Of a stretch of 64,000 nt of DNA, positions 11,083 to 19,169 are shown one piece after another; the first letter of the stretch is position 1, and each line of letters starts with the position of its first letter. The notes beneath the pieces were generated by a model that worked only from the letters and a program-made list of their open reading frames with translations, searched no databases and was not told the origin of the DNA. Position numbers and translations under genes: made by a program. This stretch comes from Thermodesulfovibrio sp. 3907-1M (lineage in GTDB: Bacteria; Nitrospirota; Thermodesulfovibrionia; Thermodesulfovibrionales; Thermodesulfovibrionaceae), in assembly GCF_040450955.1 (NCBI RefSeq), contig NZ_CP144373.1:1468486-1532485 (forward strand), given 5' to 3'.

Positions 11083-12249
11083 ATGATAAAGTGGCGTGCA
11101 ATTTTTGATAAAATTGAACCTCTTATTCTGTCGCCTGAAGCCATTGTTATAACAGGAATGAGGAGAACTGGCAAAGCTACAGTGCTAAAGTGGGCTTACG
11201 AAAAGATAGAGCATAAAAATAAAATTTTCATTGACCTTGAAAATCCCATAAATAGAAAGATTTTTAGCTCGGAAAATTATTATGAAATTAAGAGAAATCT
11301 TGAATTTATGGGGTTAAATTTTACTGAAAGAGCTTTTATTTTCATTGATGAGATTCAGTTCGTAAAGACAATTCCATCTGTAGTTAAGTACTTTATTGAT
11401 AATTACAATGCTAAATTTTTTCTTACAGGATCTGCAAGCTTTTATCTTAAAAATCTTTTTACTGAATCACTTTCAGGAAGAAAATACATATTTGAGCTTT
11501 TTCCTTTAAGTTTTAAAGAGTTTCTCCACTTTAAAGATAAAAATTTTGATATTAATGAAAACTCCCCTGTTTCTCAGAGCACTTACAGCTTATTAATGCC
11601 CCTTTATGAAGAGTATCTTGAATTTGGAGGCTTTCCCGGCGTTGTGCTTAAAGAAAGCATAGAAGAAAAACAAAAAGTACTTGATGATATATTTAGTTCC
11701 TTTTATCAACTGGAAATAATACAGCTTGGCGATTTTAAAAGAAATGAGACAATAAGAGACATGATGCTACTTCTTGCTCAAAGAGTTGGAACAAAGATTG
11801 AAATAGGAAAGCTGTCAAGTGAGCTTGGAGTTTCCCATATAACAGTAAAAGAATATCTTTCATTTCTTGAAGGAACTTATTTTATTAAATTGTTAAAACC
11901 TTTTAGTAGGGGGAAAGATATTGAGATAAGAAAGATGCCAAAAGTTTACCTCTGTGATTGCGGACTTTTAAATAGAATTTCAAAACTGGAAAAGGGAAGA
12001 ATCTTTGAAAATGCTATATTTCAGAATCTGAGACTTAAAGGAGAATTGAACTACTATCAAAGAAAATCAGGAGTGGAGATTGATTTTATTCTGAACAAAG
12101 AAAAAGGTTATGAGACTAAGCTAAAGCCCTATGCTTCAGATGTTTCAAGACTTAAAAAACTGGTTCATGATATAGGTTTAAAAGAATTCAGGATTGTCTC
12201 AAAAGAATACACCAGCCTTGAAAACACAGTATTCTGTTTTCAGATTTAG
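11083..12249 (+). CDS. AAA_14 / DUF4143 family ATPase
   Basis: The 388-residue protein begins with an ATP-binding domain: Walker A GMRRTGKAT near residue 25, Walker B FIFIDEIQ near 86, sensor FLTGSASF. The C-terminal part, with EYLEFGGFPGVV and a late YYQRKSGVEIDFIL segment, matches the DUF4143 nuclease-like domain. These ATPases are widespread in bacteria and archaea, often in variable gene sets, with no settled function. The gene ends one base before the convergent treT stop. The duplicated 21-bp sequence just upstream may hold its promoter. Confidence 0.85.
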   Translation: MIKWRAIFDKIEPLILSPEAIVITGMRRTGKATVLKWAYEKIEHKNKIFIDLENPINRKIFSSENYYEIKRNLEFMGLNFTERAFIFIDEIQFVKTIPSVVKYFIDNYNAKFFLTGSASFYLKNLFTESLSGRKYIFELFPLSFKEFLHFKDKNFDINENSPVSQSTYSLLMPLYEEYLEFGGFPGVVLKESIEEKQKVLDDIFSSFYQLEIIQLGDFKRNETIRDMMLLLAQRVGTKIEIGKLSSELGVSHITVKEYLSFLEGTYFIKLLKPFSRGKDIEIRKMPKVYLCDCGLLNRISKLEKGRIFENAIFQNLRLKGELNYYQRKSGVEIDFILNKEKGYETKLKPYASDVSRLKKLVHDIGLKEFRIVSKEYTSLENTVFCFQI

Positions 12250-12250
12250 T

Positions 12251-13495
12251 TCATAGATATATCAACTCATCCTTGTAATACTGGGAAAGGAAAAGAAGCA
12301 GATAGTCTTTAAGATGCCTTGTTATTAAAAAGTTTTGCTTTACATGGGCATGTCCATTTTTTCCAAGCCACTGTGCAAACTCCTGATTTGTAAGAAGTGT
12401 TCTTATTGAATAGGCAGCACCCTCTATTGAATGACACAGCATTCCTGTGATTTTGTGTTTTACTTGAAGCATTATTCCACCAACAGCTGATGCAACCACT
12501 GGTTTACCCTTCCACAATGCCTCTGTCACTGTTAAACCAAAGCCTTCTTTTAATGATTTCTGAACAATCACTTTTGCTGCCCTCTGCAAAGCATTTATCT
12601 CTATGTCACTGTCAGGTGGAAGCAGAAGAATATGTATATCGGGATTTTTACCTGCCACCTGCCTTACCTCTTCAAGAACCTTATCGGACTCAGGATCATC
12701 AGTGGCTGTTCCTCCAGCGAGAATAAGCTGACAGGGAATGCTTTTTCTTACTATCTCAAAGGCTTTTATTACACCAACAGGGTCTTTGAGATAATCAAAC
12801 CTTGAAACCTGAAGTATTATTGGCTTTTTTCTATCAATTCCATATTTATCCAGGACAGCATTAATCTGTTCCTCAGAGAGCTCTTTATTCTTATTGCTTA
12901 GAGGATCTATAGAAGGATATATCAAAAACATTCTGATTTTAAGCATCTTTGCAAAGTTTGGAGCAGAAAAAACCGCTGCATCATACTGTTCAACATAGTC
13001 TTTGATAAAGTTCCATATCCTTTCATCAGGATTTGATACATCAATATGACATCGCCACAGCCATTTTTCTCCTACCTGTTCTCGTTTTTTTATTAGAGCA
13101 ACTGGCTGGGGGTCATGAACAAAAATTATGTCTCCTGATAACTCCATTTCTTCAGAATTTTTTCTGTTTATCTCAAGAAAATACTCAAACTCATCTTCTT
13201 TGAATTCTTCTCTTTTTCCATGCAGTGCATTGTGAAATTTTTTAGTAATGTTGAAAAATTCATTGTCTCCCTTAATGACACTCCATTTTGCATCAACTCC
13301 AAGTTCATTAAGAAAGGGGACCATTCTTGCAAGAATCTCTGCAACTCCTCCTCCAATATATGTAGAGTTAATATTCAAAATTCTTTTCCCTGAAAGTTTA
13401 TCTGCAAGAATTTTTAATTCTTCAAGTAAGGATTTACCAATTATTGGTTCATAATCTCTGAGTTTTGGTCTTTTAGTATGCAAATCCCTATCCAA
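12251..13495 (-). CDS. treT: Trehalose glycosyltransferring synthase (GT4, TreT type)
   Basis: The 414-residue GT4 glycosyltransferase has the N-terminal NSTYIGGGVAEILARMVP typical of TreT, the central ILQVSRFDYLKDPVGVIKAF, and the nucleotide-sugar E-x7-E region EGFGLTVTEALWKGKPVVAS. TreT makes trehalose directly from NDP-glucose and glucose in a reversible reaction, independent of OtsA/OtsB. The start is a TTG at 13495 preceded by GGAGGT, overlapping the end of the channel gene by 8 bases. It is the last gene of the osmotic operon. A GT4 trehalose phosphorylase is a less likely alternative. Confidence 0.82.
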   Translation of the reverse strand: MDRDLHTKRPKLRDYEPIIGKSLLEELKILADKLSGKRILNINSTYIGGGVAEILARMVPFLNELGVDAKWSVIKGDNEFFNITKKFHNALHGKREEFKEDEFEYFLEINRKNSEEMELSGDIIFVHDPQPVALIKKREQVGEKWLWRCHIDVSNPDERIWNFIKDYVEQYDAAVFSAPNFAKMLKIRMFLIYPSIDPLSNKNKELSEEQINAVLDKYGIDRKKPIILQVSRFDYLKDPVGVIKAFEIVRKSIPCQLILAGGTATDDPESDKVLEEVRQVAGKNPDIHILLLPPDSDIEINALQRAAKVIVQKSLKEGFGLTVTEALWKGKPVVASAVGGIMLQVKHKITGMLCHSIEGAAYSIRTLLTNQEFAQWLGKNGHAHVKQNFLITRHLKDYLLLFLSQYYKDELIYL

Positions 13496-14882
13496 CTGTT
13501 ACCTCCGTTTCAAGATAACTCTCAATTATAGAGATTATCTGCTCTCTTAAGCTTTCAATTGTGTGCATATAGGGGTCTATGCTCATAATAGCCTCTGCAA
13601 GTTTTGACTCACCAAGACTTTCACTTAGCCATAAAGAAAAATCATTGGAGATTTTACCAACTCTTAATTTTGCCTCATATATATGAAAAAACAAAGAATT
13701 GGAACTTATAAATCTTAATACTTGAACAAACTCTCTGAGGTCATGAGCAATATAGGGTGTTGGCATGATTACACTCACAGATTTAATAAAATGAAACTCT
13801 TCTCCTTCTTCACAATTTTTATCGCCGGGGTTATTGCTGAGATATTCCTCAATTATATCTGATACTCTTTTTCTTATTTCTCCAATACTTGAGAACTCAA
13901 AGATGTCCATTGAAGAGAGTTTTTCAGCAAGGGCATCATAACCTAAAGCATTTCCAATCCATAGAGCAAATTCATTAGAAGGCTGAGGGGTAAGATAGTG
14001 ATACTCTTCAATAAAGTCATGGGTATGATAGAAAATAACAGAATCGGGAACTTCTCTTATGTATCTCAATAGTTCAGTTAGATTTTTTGCCTTTAATCCT
14101 GTAAGTTCTTTTGCGTTTAGTCTTGTATAAAATCTGAAAGGTTCTTTTGCTTTTTTGGGCGGTTTTCTGAGTATTTCCAGTTTTGCTTTAATAAGCCTGC
14201 TATTGGGTATGATTAATATTTTTTCGTCAAAACTTTTTACCTCTATATGTCTCCATGTTATGTTTAAAACACTACCTTCTTCACCAGATTCAAGTTTAAT
14301 ATAGTCTCCTTTTTTGATTATCTCACCATTTATAATGTCAAAACCAGCAATAAAATTTGAAATATTTTCTTTTAGAGCAAAAACAGCTATTGCGCAGCCA
14401 AGAATTATAAAAAGAATAAAAGGAGTGGTGGGGAACTTCCATATCTCAAAAAATATCAATATTGCCATAGTAATAAAAACAATAACAAATGCGGTTTTCA
14501 ATGCCTGAAAAGGTTTAAATAGAGGTTTCTTTATAGTTTCAGAGTAAAGATTTAACATTTCTATTGCTGTTCTGTAAAGAACATAGATTAAAGATAGAAA
14601 GAAAACGGTTAGAAGAATTCTGCAGATAATCAAATAAATTTGTCCTTTTACAGGAGAGAGTTCTACTGCAGTATAGGCACCAATGATTAAAATCCAGTAA
14701 AATATAATAATAGTAAGATTTGAGATAACTATCTCCTTGCCAGCCCACTTTACTGATTTAAGCCTGTCTATAATATATTTAGAAAATTTGAATCTTACAA
14801 AGAATGCTAAGATTGTGAAAGACACTAAAACTATCAGCGGAACAAAAAATATAAACCAGTTTTTTTCAAACCATTCAAGCAT
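13488..14882 (-). CDS. MscS-family mechanosensitive channel with duplicated C-terminal domain
   Basis: The 464-residue protein has transmembrane segments at about residues 10-29, 52-73, 84-103, 128-147 and 155-175. The MscS pore/beta domain follows (KENISNFIAGFDIINGEIIKKGDYI, quoted here only as its ends KENISNF and KKGDYI), with the PNS motif at about 226. After it come two homologous ~95-residue units, 249-349 and 363-458, sharing F-x-F, FYH/FFH, SN[ED]F[AS]LW, LG-x-LAE, and I-x-E-[IL]-R...II-E-YL. I suspect DUF5752 but cannot confirm it. The gene overlaps otsB and treT by 8 bases each. Confidence 0.85.
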   Translation of the reverse strand: MLEWFEKNWFIFFVPLIVLVSFTILAFFVRFKFSKYIIDRLKSVKWAGKEIVISNLTIIIFYWILIIGAYTAVELSPVKGQIYLIICRILLTVFFLSLIYVLYRTAIEMLNLYSETIKKPLFKPFQALKTAFVIVFITMAILIFFEIWKFPTTPFILFIILGCAIAVFALKENISNFIAGFDIINGEIIKKGDYIKLESGEEGSVLNITWRHIEVKSFDEKILIIPNSRLIKAKLEILRKPPKKAKEPFRFYTRLNAKELTGLKAKNLTELLRYIREVPDSVIFYHTHDFIEEYHYLTPQPSNEFALWIGNALGYDALAEKLSSMDIFEFSSIGEIRKRVSDIIEEYLSNNPGDKNCEEGEEFHFIKSVSVIMPTPYIAHDLREFVQVLRFISSNSLFFHIYEAKLRVGKISNDFSLWLSESLGESKLAEAIMSIDPYMHTIESLREQIISIIESYLETEVTVG

Positions 14883-15645
14883 TTAAAACCTCTTTCAATG
14901 TTTTAATAAACCTATATACCTCTTTCTGATTCCTGATAAAGTATTTTGCCAGAGTTTTTTTTGAATATCCAACTTTAACGGTTAAACCCTTATCATTAAT
15001 TTCGCTGAATACTGTTTCATCTGTAATGTCATCACCAACAAAAACAGGTAAATGTTCTCCTTTAAAGTGACTTATCAAAAATGAAACTGCGCTGCCTTTA
15101 TTCCAGTTAACTGCTGGTAATACTTCAAAAACCATTTTCCCCTTTAAAATTTTTATATAATCTTGGTTAAAATTGCTGATAATATCTGAAAAGAGCTTTT
15201 TCAGTGTGCTTCTATTTTTTGCATCAACCTGACGATAATGAAGTGCAAAAGAAAACTCTTTTTTTTCAACCACCATTCCCAGAAATTTATCATTCAATTT
15301 TTTAACCTCTCTGTAAATTTTGTTTATATAATCCTTCAGTCTTTCCGCATCTGGATTAATATATTTTATCTCTGGACCTTCTATGTATAAACCATGACTT
15401 CCACTGTAGTAAACTCCTTTTATTGAAACTCTCTTTTTTAAATCTTTCAAATCTCTACCGCTTATTATTCCAATTTTTATTTTATTTTTAAGTTCCTTAA
15501 AAACTTCTTTAAGTTCATAAGATAAATAACAGTCTTCTGGATTTTTCATTATCGGAACAAGAGTTCCATCAAAATCAAAAAACAAAAATATTTTTTTTAC
15601 ATTTGCAGTATCAAGCCAGTTTGAATGAAAAAGATATTCCGGCAT
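14875..15645 (-). CDS. otsB: Trehalose-6-phosphate phosphatase
   Basis: The 256-residue HAD-superfamily protein carries FLFFDFDGTLVPI (nucleophile and acid aspartates), IGIISGRDL, the lysine region NWNKGSAVSFLI and FVGDDITDETVF. It removes phosphate from trehalose-6-phosphate to give trehalose. It starts three bases after the otsA stop, and its end (ATGCTTGA) overlaps the start of the channel gene, so all four genes are probably translated together. Confidence 0.95.
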   Translation of the reverse strand: MPEYLFHSNWLDTANVKKIFLFFDFDGTLVPIMKNPEDCYLSYELKEVFKELKNKIKIGIISGRDLKDLKKRVSIKGVYYSGSHGLYIEGPEIKYINPDAERLKDYINKIYREVKKLNDKFLGMVVEKKEFSFALHYRQVDAKNRSTLKKLFSDIISNFNQDYIKILKGKMVFEVLPAVNWNKGSAVSFLISHFKGEHLPVFVGDDITDETVFSEINDKGLTVKVGYSKKTLAKYFIRNQKEVYRFIKTLKEVLNA

Positions 15646-15648
15646 TTT

Positions 15649-17886
15649 TCAGAGTCTCACCAGTGATGCAATAAGATCTCTTGTCCAGCGATATATATTC
15701 CTTTCCTGAATAAAACTTCTCATCTTACGCATTCTTTCCATTTTTTCATCTTCATCCATTGTTAAAGCATCATATATTGCATCTGCTATGCTTTCAATAT
15801 CATATGGATTAATTATAACTGCATCTTTAAGTTCACGGGATGCACCTGCGAATTGACTTAAAATAAGAACTCCGCTTTCGTCTTCTCTTGATGCAATAAA
15901 CTCTTTTGCCACGAGATTCATTCCATCATGAAGAGATGTTACCATGCAAAGGTCTGCTATTTTATAAAAAGGTATAATTTTTGAATGAGGATGATATCCT
16001 TTTAAAAATACTATGGGTTTGTAATTATTACTCTGAAACTTCCAGTTAATTCTGTCTGCGACTTCTTCAACAGCATCCATAATTTCTCTGTATTGTTTTA
16101 TGTGAGTTCTGCTTGGGGAGCCAAACTGCACGAAGCTAAACTTACCAATAAATTGGGGATATTTTTCAAGAAATCTCTCAATTCCAAGAAATCTTTCAAG
16201 GATTCCTTTTGTATAGTCAATTCTGTCAACGCCCACTCCAATGTATTCTGCTTTTATTCCGAGTTCTTTAATAAGTTTTACTTTTAGTTTTGCCTTATTT
16301 TCAACATTATCTGAAAAATCCTCAAAACTGACACTTATTGGAAAAGGCTTTACAGTCGTAATCTGGCCTCTTCGTTCTATTGAAAAATGTTCCCAGTCTA
16401 TCTTTGATTCAAGAAATCTGTCAACGGTATCAAGGAAGTTGTTGCAGTAAAACTGAATATGAAAGCCTATTAAATCTGCACCAAGCATTCCAATAAGAAT
16501 TTCTCTTGCCCATGGACATATACCAAACACTTCAGGATTAGGCCATGGAATATGCCAGAACAAAGCTATTTTTGCATCAGGTCTTTTTTGCTTTATTAAA
16601 AGAGGAACAAGAGCAAGATGATAATCCTGAACGAGAACAAGGGGAGAGTCCTCATCTTTTATCTCATCAAGCAGGGCATTGGCGAATTTTTCATTCACTC
16701 TCTGATACTCAATCCAGTCTTCCTTTCTGAAAACAGGTCTAACATAGGTTATGTGACAGAGGGGCCAGAGTCCTTCATTGGAAAATCCATAGTAATATTT
16801 TTTTTCTTCTTCTTTTGTAAGCCATACTCTTTTTAATGTATATGAAGGTTTTTCAGGTGGCACTCTTATTTTGTCCTCTCTGTCAACAACCTCTCTGTCA
16901 GCATCTCCTGCTCCATGGGCAATCCATACTCCATCACAGGCTTTCATAACAGGGTCAAGGGCTGTAACAAGTCCTCCTGCAGGAACAACGCACTTTATGT
17001 TCTCTCCTTCTTTTATGTGCATATATGGTTCTCTGTTTGAAAGAAGAAACAGTTTCTTATCTCCTAATTCTATTCTGATAAATTCCTTGAGTCTTTCAGC
17101 AGTCCACAGTGAGTCTGTAACTGCTTTAAATCTTTCTTCCTCTTCAGCTTTTGCCTTAATCATTGATAGGGTTTTAATCAGATTTGTAACTTCATTTACC
17201 AATGGAGCAAGAACGTCTCCTTTAACAGGCACATAAGATGGAGGATTTTTAATTTTTCCTGTTCTTAACTCTTTAAGCCATTCAGCCATACGAGCAACAG
17301 GACCTGTAATATTCCATTTAATTACAAGAACAGAGATTGCTACAATTGAAATAGTTAAAGCCAACAAACGAAGCATATTCTGTTTCCACATCTCTTTAAG
17401 TCTTATATCAATATATGAAGCATCCTGAAATAGTGCTAAAGCACCGATTAAAGGCTTTTCTTCAAAGACATCTGAAAATATTGGTATTACATAGAGATAT
17501 ATTCTTTCTCTGTCAATTTTTATAAACTTGGATTTTGGAGATTTTTCAGCGAGAGCATTTATCACCTCAACAGGTGCTTTTGATATATGGGATTTCAGGA
17601 AAGAATTTGAAGATATAACATGCCCTGATGCATCAAAAACAGCAACACCCTTCAGTCTTTCACGATTGCCGAATTTTTCAACAAGCCTGCTAAGTCTCTC
17701 AGTCTGTCCTGTTTCAACCAGCGTTACAACAGACTCTCGCAGACTTTCTGCAAGTATTATGCTTCTTCTTTCAATATCAGCCTGAAGACTATTTTTTTCA
17801 TCATTGATCTGAATTAAAGAGAAAACTGCCACAACAAGTGTAATGCCAATAAAAAGAGATAAAATAAGCCTGAAGGTTAATTTCAT
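15649..17886 (-). CDS. otsA: Membrane-anchored sensor / trehalose-6-phosphate synthase fusion (GT20)
   Basis: Residues 7-26 and 171-190 are transmembrane, and the ~145 residues between them form an extracytoplasmic sensor-like domain. A HAMP-like linker and coiled coil cover about 190-250 (WNITGPVARM start). The GT20 catalytic domain begins near 278 and is complete: SNREP, VVPAGGLVTAL, VQDYHL (419-424), FWHIPWPNPEVF (443-454), GVDRIDYTKGI (552-562) and DGMNLVAKEF (654-663). It would make trehalose-6-phosphate from UDP-glucose and glucose-6-phosphate at the inner membrane face. Ordinary OtsA is ~470 residues and soluble; the sensor half is the kind normally seen on kinases or chemoreceptors. 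It is first in the operon and starts directly after a TATAAT box. Confidence 0.93.
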   Translation of the reverse strand: MKLTFRLILSLFIGITLVVAVFSLIQINDEKNSLQADIERRSIILAESLRESVVTLVETGQTERLSRLVEKFGNRERLKGVAVFDASGHVISSNSFLKSHISKAPVEVINALAEKSPKSKFIKIDRERIYLYVIPIFSDVFEEKPLIGALALFQDASYIDIRLKEMWKQNMLRLLALTISIVAISVLVIKWNITGPVARMAEWLKELRTGKIKNPPSYVPVKGDVLAPLVNEVTNLIKTLSMIKAKAEEEERFKAVTDSLWTAERLKEFIRIELGDKKLFLLSNREPYMHIKEGENIKCVVPAGGLVTALDPVMKACDGVWIAHGAGDADREVVDREDKIRVPPEKPSYTLKRVWLTKEEEKKYYYGFSNEGLWPLCHITYVRPVFRKEDWIEYQRVNEKFANALLDEIKDEDSPLVLVQDYHLALVPLLIKQKRPDAKIALFWHIPWPNPEVFGICPWAREILIGMLGADLIGFHIQFYCNNFLDTVDRFLESKIDWEHFSIERRGQITTVKPFPISVSFEDFSDNVENKAKLKVKLIKELGIKAEYIGVGVDRIDYTKGILERFLGIERFLEKYPQFIGKFSFVQFGSPSRTHIKQYREIMDAVEEVADRINWKFQSNNYKPIVFLKGYHPHSKIIPFYKIADLCMVTSLHDGMNLVAKEFIASREDESGVLILSQFAGASRELKDAVIINPYDIESIADAIYDALTMDEDEKMERMRKMRSFIQERNIYRWTRDLIASLVRL

Positions 17887-17948: not shown

Positions 17949-19169
17949 ATGCTACAATATCTAATGGAACTTCATCTTATTTTTCTTTATCTGGCGGTTT
18001 TGCTGTTTTTTGCAAGGCTTACAGGAGACATCTTTGCAAAATTTGGCATTCCATCTGTTATTGGTGAGATATTCGTAGGAGTGCTTCTTGGACAGAGTGT
18101 TCTTGGAATAATTCCACTTAGTGATGTTTTTCGCTTGCTTGCAGAACTTGGAATAATAATTTTGCTTTTTCACATCGGACTTGAGGCTGATTTAAAACAA
18201 TTGAAACAGGTCGGTATTTCTGCTTTAGCTGTTGCACTCACTGGAGCAGTAGCTCCAATTATTACAGGATTTCTTGTTTCCTATTACATTTTTAATTTCC
18301 CATTTATGAGCTCTCTTTTTATTGGAGGGACTCTTACTGCTACAAGCATTGGCATTACTGTAAGAGTACTTGAAGATTTAGGTAAAATAAAAGAACGCTT
18401 TGCTCAGATAGTGCTTGGTGCAGCAGTTTTAGATGACATATTTGGCGTTGTTGTGCTTGCAGCATTGTTTGAGTTTTCAAAAACTCAGGAGATTCATTTA
18501 AATGCTACATTGCTTCTAATACTTTATATTGGGACATTCTTTCTCTTTGCACCAATAATAGGTAAAATTTTTGCCTATTTCATAAGCTTTCTTGCAAAAA
18601 AGCTCAATACCCTTGATTTTGTTCCTCCTATTGTAGTTGCCATAATTCTGCTGTTTGCCTTTGCCGCGCATGAAATAGGCTCACCTGAAATACTTGGTGC
18701 ATTTACTGCAGGAATTGCCTTTTCAAGAAGATTCACTATTCCCTTTGCTGCAGCTTTTCAGGCAGACAGAGAGATTATCCATAAAATTGAAGAATCGCTG
18801 AATCCTCTCATATGGATATTTACTCCAATATTTTTTGTCTATGTGGGATTGCAAATTAATTTGAGAGCAATTGATTTTCAGTCTCTGCACTTCTGGGCTT
18901 TAAGTGCTGTCCTCCTCATAGTTGCTCTCGCAACCAAACTACTGGCTGGTTTATTTGTAAAAGGGACAAAAAAAGAAAAATTAAGTGTTGGCTTTTCCAT
19001 GCTTCCAAGAGGTGAGGTAGGTCTTATTTTTGCTGAATTTGGAAGAATAAGCGGAATTTATGACAGCACCCTTTATGCAGTAATAATCTTTGTTGTTGCT
19101 CTAACCACTCTGATTGCTCCTGTTGTATTAAAAACTCTTTTAAAAGAAGAAAAGGGGAAATTCTCATGA
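17949..19169 (+). CDS. Monovalent cation:proton antiporter (CPA2 family)
   Basis: The 406-residue polytopic protein has about 12 hydrophobic segments. [21 protein letters not shown] (shown here by its ends GIPSVIG and GVLLG), [19 protein letters not shown] and [16 protein letters not shown] carry the CPA2 hallmarks, including the paired aspartates. There is no C-terminal TrkA_N/RCK domain, unlike KefB/KefC. It probably exchanges Na+ or K+ for H+ across the inner membrane. A TATAGT box ends 5 bases before the ATG, and a second in-frame ATG at 17964 is possible. It is divergent from otsA and overlaps glgB by 4 bases (ATGA). Confidence 0.9.

Follow-up and report, generated by a model that had tools for sequence, protein, structure and literature searches.

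Is the trehalose-6-phosphate synthase encoded at this locus of Thermodesulfovibrio sp. 3907-1M a receptor, controlled from outside the cell by a sensor on the same polypeptide? We analysed the gene within a window of 64,000 nucleotides, whose coordinates are used below. The gene lies at 15649-17886(-) and encodes, in a single frame from an ATG, the 745-residue protein P0001, which is the sole GT20 protein of the host genome (a single contig of 1.94 Mb). The start codon is consistent with homologues, which also open with MK(L/I)T.R, and the stop-to-stop frame is merely 751 codons long. A preliminary description had claimed two membrane helices flanking an extracytoplasmic domain of ~145 residues, a HAMP-like linker with a coiled coil and a complete GT20 domain in one 745-codon frame. 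Hydropathy analysis located exactly two transmembrane segments, TM1 (residues 7-25, 17812-17868(-), hydropathy 2.86) and TM2 (residues 171-189, 17320-17376(-), hydropathy 2.54), 145 residues apart. Pfam matches in P0001 were exclusively of the GT20 type and covered residues 280-742 and profile positions 4-471 of 473, showing that the catalytic domain is complete; together with PDB matches and active-site residues they place it at residues 276-745 (15652-17061(-)). Homology, predicted structure and wide conservation likewise bear out the overall reading of a periplasmic sensor, two membrane helices, a HAMP-like linker and a GT20 domain. With moderate confidence, we interpret P0001 as a receptor-type, membrane-bound trehalose-6-phosphate synthase that may be gated by an outside signal through a HAMP-like relay.

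The N-terminal half of P0001 resembles that of a sensor histidine kinase. Residues 1-253 aligned with the N-terminus of the histidine kinase P0002 from the phylum of Edaphobacter at 25% identity (BLASTP E 2e-18), and comparison by profile gave 99.4% probability over 239 columns. Pfam detects HAMP, HisKA and HATPase domains in P0002. The next-best sensor match in the host genome was weak (E 3e-4) and fell in an ORF resembling a histidine kinase. AlphaFold2 modelling of the sensor half from a 33-row alignment (mean pLDDT 83) predicted a long helix at residues 2-59 that contains TM1, a mixed alpha/beta domain, a helix at 157-208 passing through TM2 and a further helix at 227-260. The top Foldseek match of this model was a full WalK kinase model (TM 0.72, 268 columns), with WalK crystal structures next. 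For the extracytoplasmic domain (residues 26-170, 17377-17811(-)), VIA-align ranked WalK (4ywz) first, with a Z of 15.6 and an rmsd of 2.3 over 136 residues, and after it sporulation kinase D, DctB, CitA and DcuS, with CitA and DctB at a Z of about 14. The kinase homology and the predicted WalK-like fold together indicate that the sensor half is a receptor module with a single Cache domain of the WalK/CitA type between two membrane helices. Gating of the enzyme is supported by this homology to a kinase sensor that includes a real HAMP domain, and by the occurrence of the WalK/CitA fold, the membrane helices and the HAMP segment in one model. Purifying selection on the sensor half, evident from the dN/dS ratios of P0001 relative to three congeners (~0.11-0.13 in the extracytoplasmic domain and 0.06-0.08 in GT20), also supports it. 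By the same ratios, the sensor evolves faster than GT20. The near-invariant sensor positions are mostly structural Gly, Pro and Leu residues, and no conserved ligand pocket was apparent in the sensor alignment, which weakens the case for gating.

The claim of a HAMP-like, coiled-coil linker held in part. Residues 192-244 (17155-17313(-)), in which Pro196 is invariant, aligned with the bona fide HAMP domain of P0002 and coincide with the modelled helices 157-208 and 227-260, so that by homology this segment is a divergent relative of HAMP. Direct Pfam searches, on the other hand, found neither Cache nor HAMP in P0001 at E<=1. The gathering score of the HAMP family (PF00672) was not reached by any fused relative either, the best being a partial match in L117 (E 0.0022, 18.7 bits versus 25). 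The fused proteins comprise group A, which is window-like, group B, which has diverged and includes family f27 among others, and group C, and the HAMP segment is more strongly degenerate in group B, where the HAMP Pro is missing. A PDB search with a sensor profile that included three kinases touched the Af1503 HAMP at E 0.05. The same search without the kinases found no HAMP, only weak matches to kinase sensors (best 5o7j, E 0.005), and since the Af1503 match is lost once the kinases leave the profile, it is not independent evidence of HAMP. These results, like the Pfam scores, count against a HAMP relay. The helical linker that follows (residues 245-275, 17062-17154(-)) contains the invariant W261 in a WTAERL motif. 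It is predicted to be helical, although the confidence for a coiled coil is low in monomer models (pLDDT <50 at residues 248-258 of the full-length model). From P228, the Pro that opens the second HAMP helix, to W261 there are 33 residues in group-A rows, whereas the equivalent spacing in most group-B rows is 26 residues, one heptad shorter. This near-constant length supports gating and is, indirectly, what would be expected if helix register transmits a signal. A stricter rule, that linker lengths differ by whole heptads only, was rejected on the group-B rows L129-L131, L134 and L135, and these rows weaken the gating reading.

P0001 is encoded in a compact operon that runs from 17886 to 12251(-). 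The phosphatase gene (14875-15645(-), 256 aa; PF02358 and TIGR00685 above cut-offs) starts 3 bp past the synthase and encodes a trehalose-6-phosphate phosphatase. It is followed by a gene for an MscS-type channel beta-domain fused to DUF5752 (13488-14882(-), 464 aa; PF00924 and PF19027 above cut-offs) and by a gene for a TreT-like GT4 glycosyltransferase (12251-13495(-), 414 aa; PF21269 at E 1e-57, PF00534), each overlapping its upstream neighbour by 8 bp. The TreT-like protein scored 382 bits against the NCBIfam TreT model, under the cut-off of 775. A Na+/H+ antiporter family gene (17949-19169(+), PF00999) is divergently transcribed from the operon, and a gene of this family also adjoins the operon in L002/L086. 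An upstream sigma-70 promoter scan gave no match. An ORF for an AAA_14/DUF4143 ATPase (11083-12249) is convergent with the end of the operon, and no link between the two was seen. Counted by eye, 12 group-A loci from the phylum contained the phosphatase (10), TreT-like (10), DUF5752 (10) and MscS (8) genes, and this conserved gene content adds to the support for gating. GT20 and DUF5752 matches occurred together in the same four of the 11 sampled genomes of the genus, and neither was present in the other seven, which suggests that the cassette is gained or lost as a unit within the genus. Some related operons lack the sensor and encode soluble synthases. L104 (4264-9415) combines MscS, DUF5752 and TreT-like genes with a soluble synthase-phosphatase, and L137 has MscS, a soluble synthase, DUF5752, TreT-like and phosphatase genes. 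The cassette thus recurs with the sensor as an optional extra. In other Nitrospirota, stand-alone DUF5752 genes were found beside TreT-like genes at 4 of 10 loci and beside GH13-like genes, which have weak GlgB similarity, at the remaining 6. DUF5752 thus probably accompanies trehalose or alpha-glucan enzymes; a literature search for it returned no paper.

Whereas the architecture, homology, conservation and operon are computed results, we infer that the protein dimerises and that its activity is gated, as well as what it senses and what exactly it makes. The extracytoplasmic Cache domain would sense an outside condition, and the change would be relayed via TM2, the divergent HAMP segment and a helical linker of near-fixed length ending in the WTAERL helix. 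There it would change how active the GT20 domain is or how it assembles. This domain would make trehalose-6-phosphate or a close analogue, and the neighbouring phosphatase would then free the sugar. Osmotic stress would be the most likely trigger, because an MscS-type channel and trehalose genes share the operon; together with the divergent cation/proton antiporter, this context makes an osmotic input plausible. A different signal acting on the same gated enzyme, such as a small ligand, envelope stress or starvation, is the strongest of the alternatives, though we think it unlikely. Several of the best structural relatives of the sensor (WalK, sporulation kinase D, CitA, DctB and DcuS) bind chemical ligands, and many group-B loci have the phosphatase alone nearby, with no channel. 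The MscS-type genes at 8 of the 12 group-A loci speak against such a signal and for the osmotic one.

The preliminary description had also suggested surveying GT20 proteins for the same architecture, and this survey found the full-length protein in three phyla. Of 246 genomes sampled from Nitrospirota, the phylum of the window, 55 carried the long form (53 aligned from near the N-terminus and two, 749-aa frames, from residue 145), as did about 30 of 297 from the phylum of Edaphobacter and four of 398 from a proteobacterial phylum. The fusion is therefore present in at least three phyla of bacteria and is widespread rather than peculiar to the host genome, and its conservation over the full length is a further argument for gating. 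Plasmid-borne relatives were also found, one of them covering residues 145-745, and are annotated plainly as trehalose-6-phosphate synthase. The group-B sensor aligned with the A/C sensor as a homologue (hhalign E 1e-26), and in a midpoint-rooted GT20 tree, with rows picked by similarity to the query, the fused forms made up one supported clade (99/92). Next to it stood two soluble synthases, L137 and L138, together with L104, a fused synthase-phosphatase. A single origin of the fusion would be the simplest reading of these relationships. In the extracytoplasmic domains of group B, two Cys residues are near-invariant (C84 and C103 of L097, 8555-9319) and absent in group A; this pair possibly forms a disulfide. 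Two ORFs of 1178 and 994 aa (L133 and L113) contain a group-B sensor-synthase; the long stretches at their N-termini may stem from starts placed too far upstream rather than from real domains.

The extracytoplasmic domain was lost in a proteobacterial subclade that falls inside group B. In L062, L063, L065, L068, L070-L072 and L118, a single N-terminal membrane helix and the linker motif precede GT20, and there is no Cache domain. Retention of the anchor where the sensor was dropped weakens the gating reading and raises the possibility that the N-terminal half of P0001 is mainly a membrane tether, placing the synthase beside the channel, the phosphatase and the TreT-like enzyme with no control of activity. 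The degeneration of HAMP, more marked in group B, and the faster evolution of the sensor relative to GT20 are consistent with a tether. A plain anchor, however, would need neither a linker of fixed length nor a Cache domain of 145 residues that purifying selection maintains across groups A, B and C, and we regard a pure tether as rather improbable, more so than a gated enzyme with a non-osmotic signal.

The preliminary description took the output of the protein to be osmolyte synthesis itself, which is plausible. The GT20 match (PF00982) scored 421.8 bits against a cut-off of 32.5 (E 4e-126), and PDB trehalose-6-phosphate synthases matched the domain at E 1e-82. We compared the active site using the OtsA residue lists of PMC1769515 and PMC3441724. 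All nucleotide-sugar residues of OtsA (Gly22, Asp130, His154, Arg262, Lys267, Asp361 and Glu369) are kept in P0001, as G305, D421, H445, R555, K560, D654 and E662, respectively. Four of the five glucose-6-phosphate residues are also kept (Arg9, Tyr76, Trp85 and Arg300), and the fifth, Trp40, a glucose-6-phosphate contact in OtsA (PMC1769515), is replaced by His324 (16915-16917). This nearly complete active site supports the reading of a gated synthase, and the replaced Trp40 weakens it. The position was not Trp in any of the 61 clade rows (54 fused and 7 TM-anchored), where it was H in 48, Y in 7, Q in 4, N in 1 and A in 1, whereas the eight rows compared from elsewhere in GT20 (OtsA, synthase-phosphatase and GgpS-type) all had W. 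As the soluble sisters L137 and L138 have H or Q, the change is a trait of the clade and not of the fusion. All of the listed OtsA residues are conserved in enzymes of shown TPS activity (PMC1769515), yet Trp40 is replaced here, so that trehalose-6-phosphate is a putative product.

Another acceptor would yield a phosphorylated glucoside other than trehalose-6-phosphate. Besides the clade-wide loss of Trp40, this alternative draws on NCBIfam scores, since P0001 reached 443.6 bits against the TIGR02400 (OtsA) cut-off of 564.85, other clade members reached 403-443 bits, and the clade is also below the GgpS cut-off. A second route to trehalose would, moreover, be redundant beside the TreT-like gene of this operon. 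Yet Arg9, Tyr76, Trp85 and Arg300 remain in place, the scores are closer to OtsA than to GgpS and the partner gene encodes a clear trehalose-phosphatase; we consider a different acceptor about as improbable as a pure tether, if not slightly more so. Assignment as a GgpS was rejected on score (309 bits versus 569) and on residues. Finally, a frame or assembly artefact that brought together two genes, one for a sensor and one for a synthase, has virtually no chance of being correct, as nothing was found in its favour, dozens of independent homologues read through at full length without internal stops, and dN/dS is low across the junction. These assessments are not mutually exclusive, because a non-osmotic signal and another acceptor are both compatible with gating.

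If the sensor gates the enzyme, P0001 would link an outside condition directly to protectant synthesis, with neither a phosphorelay nor new transcription, and Cache-HAMP signalling would control a glycosyltransferase of primary metabolism. The protein occurs in environmentally important groups (Nitrospirota and Acidobacteriota), and the clade-wide change at Trp40 would put the annotated product, trehalose-6-phosphate, in question. We view as doubtful the bolder proposal of a new class of transmembrane receptor-enzyme in several phyla, in which a Cache-HAMP module relays a signal from outside directly to a sugar-making glycosyltransferase with an altered acceptor site and a product or control unlike that of trehalose-6-phosphate. 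A literature search for a sensor-fused or HAMP-containing trehalose synthase, with subscription journals mostly outside its reach, returned nothing relevant.

P0001 combines features of several known systems. With OtsA and Tps1 (GT20) it shares the catalytic domain, the nucleotide-sugar residues and most acceptor residues; OtsA, however, is soluble and sensorless and has Trp40 where the clade of P0001 has His. With GgpS, also GT20, it shares the fold and a REPY motif near the N-terminus, but the GgpS-type L074 has Asn where the clade keeps Arg300 and Trp where it has His. The whole N-terminal half is common to the WalK/CitA-type sensor histidine kinases (TM-Cache-TM-HAMP), a likeness based on sequence with P0002 and on predicted fold with WalK. 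Unlike these kinases, P0001 has a divergent HAMP segment and, in place of a kinase, a glycosyltransferase output. By gene content, the operon resembles msc-gt-tpsp of Thermoproteus tenax, in that a mechanosensitive channel, a GT4, a TPS and a TPP are found together, here within 12251-17886(-). In T. tenax, the glycosyltransferase binds the synthase-phosphatase and is required for its synthase activity (PMC3634074), and this precedent of regulated TPS activity in a trehalose-synthase/GT/MSC operon supports gating. That type of operon was called unique to two archaeal genera (PMC3634074). The operon in the window differs in being bacterial, with separate synthase and phosphatase, a sensor on the synthase and an added DUF5752, and L104, also bacterial, has a layout close to that of T. 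tenax. Comparable layouts thus exist in bacteria. ProP, BetP and OpuA are osmosensing transporters, which take solutes up. If the osmotic reading is right, P0001 would resemble them as one protein that both senses and responds without transcription, and, in contrast to their uptake, this sensor-fused synthase would synthesise a solute.
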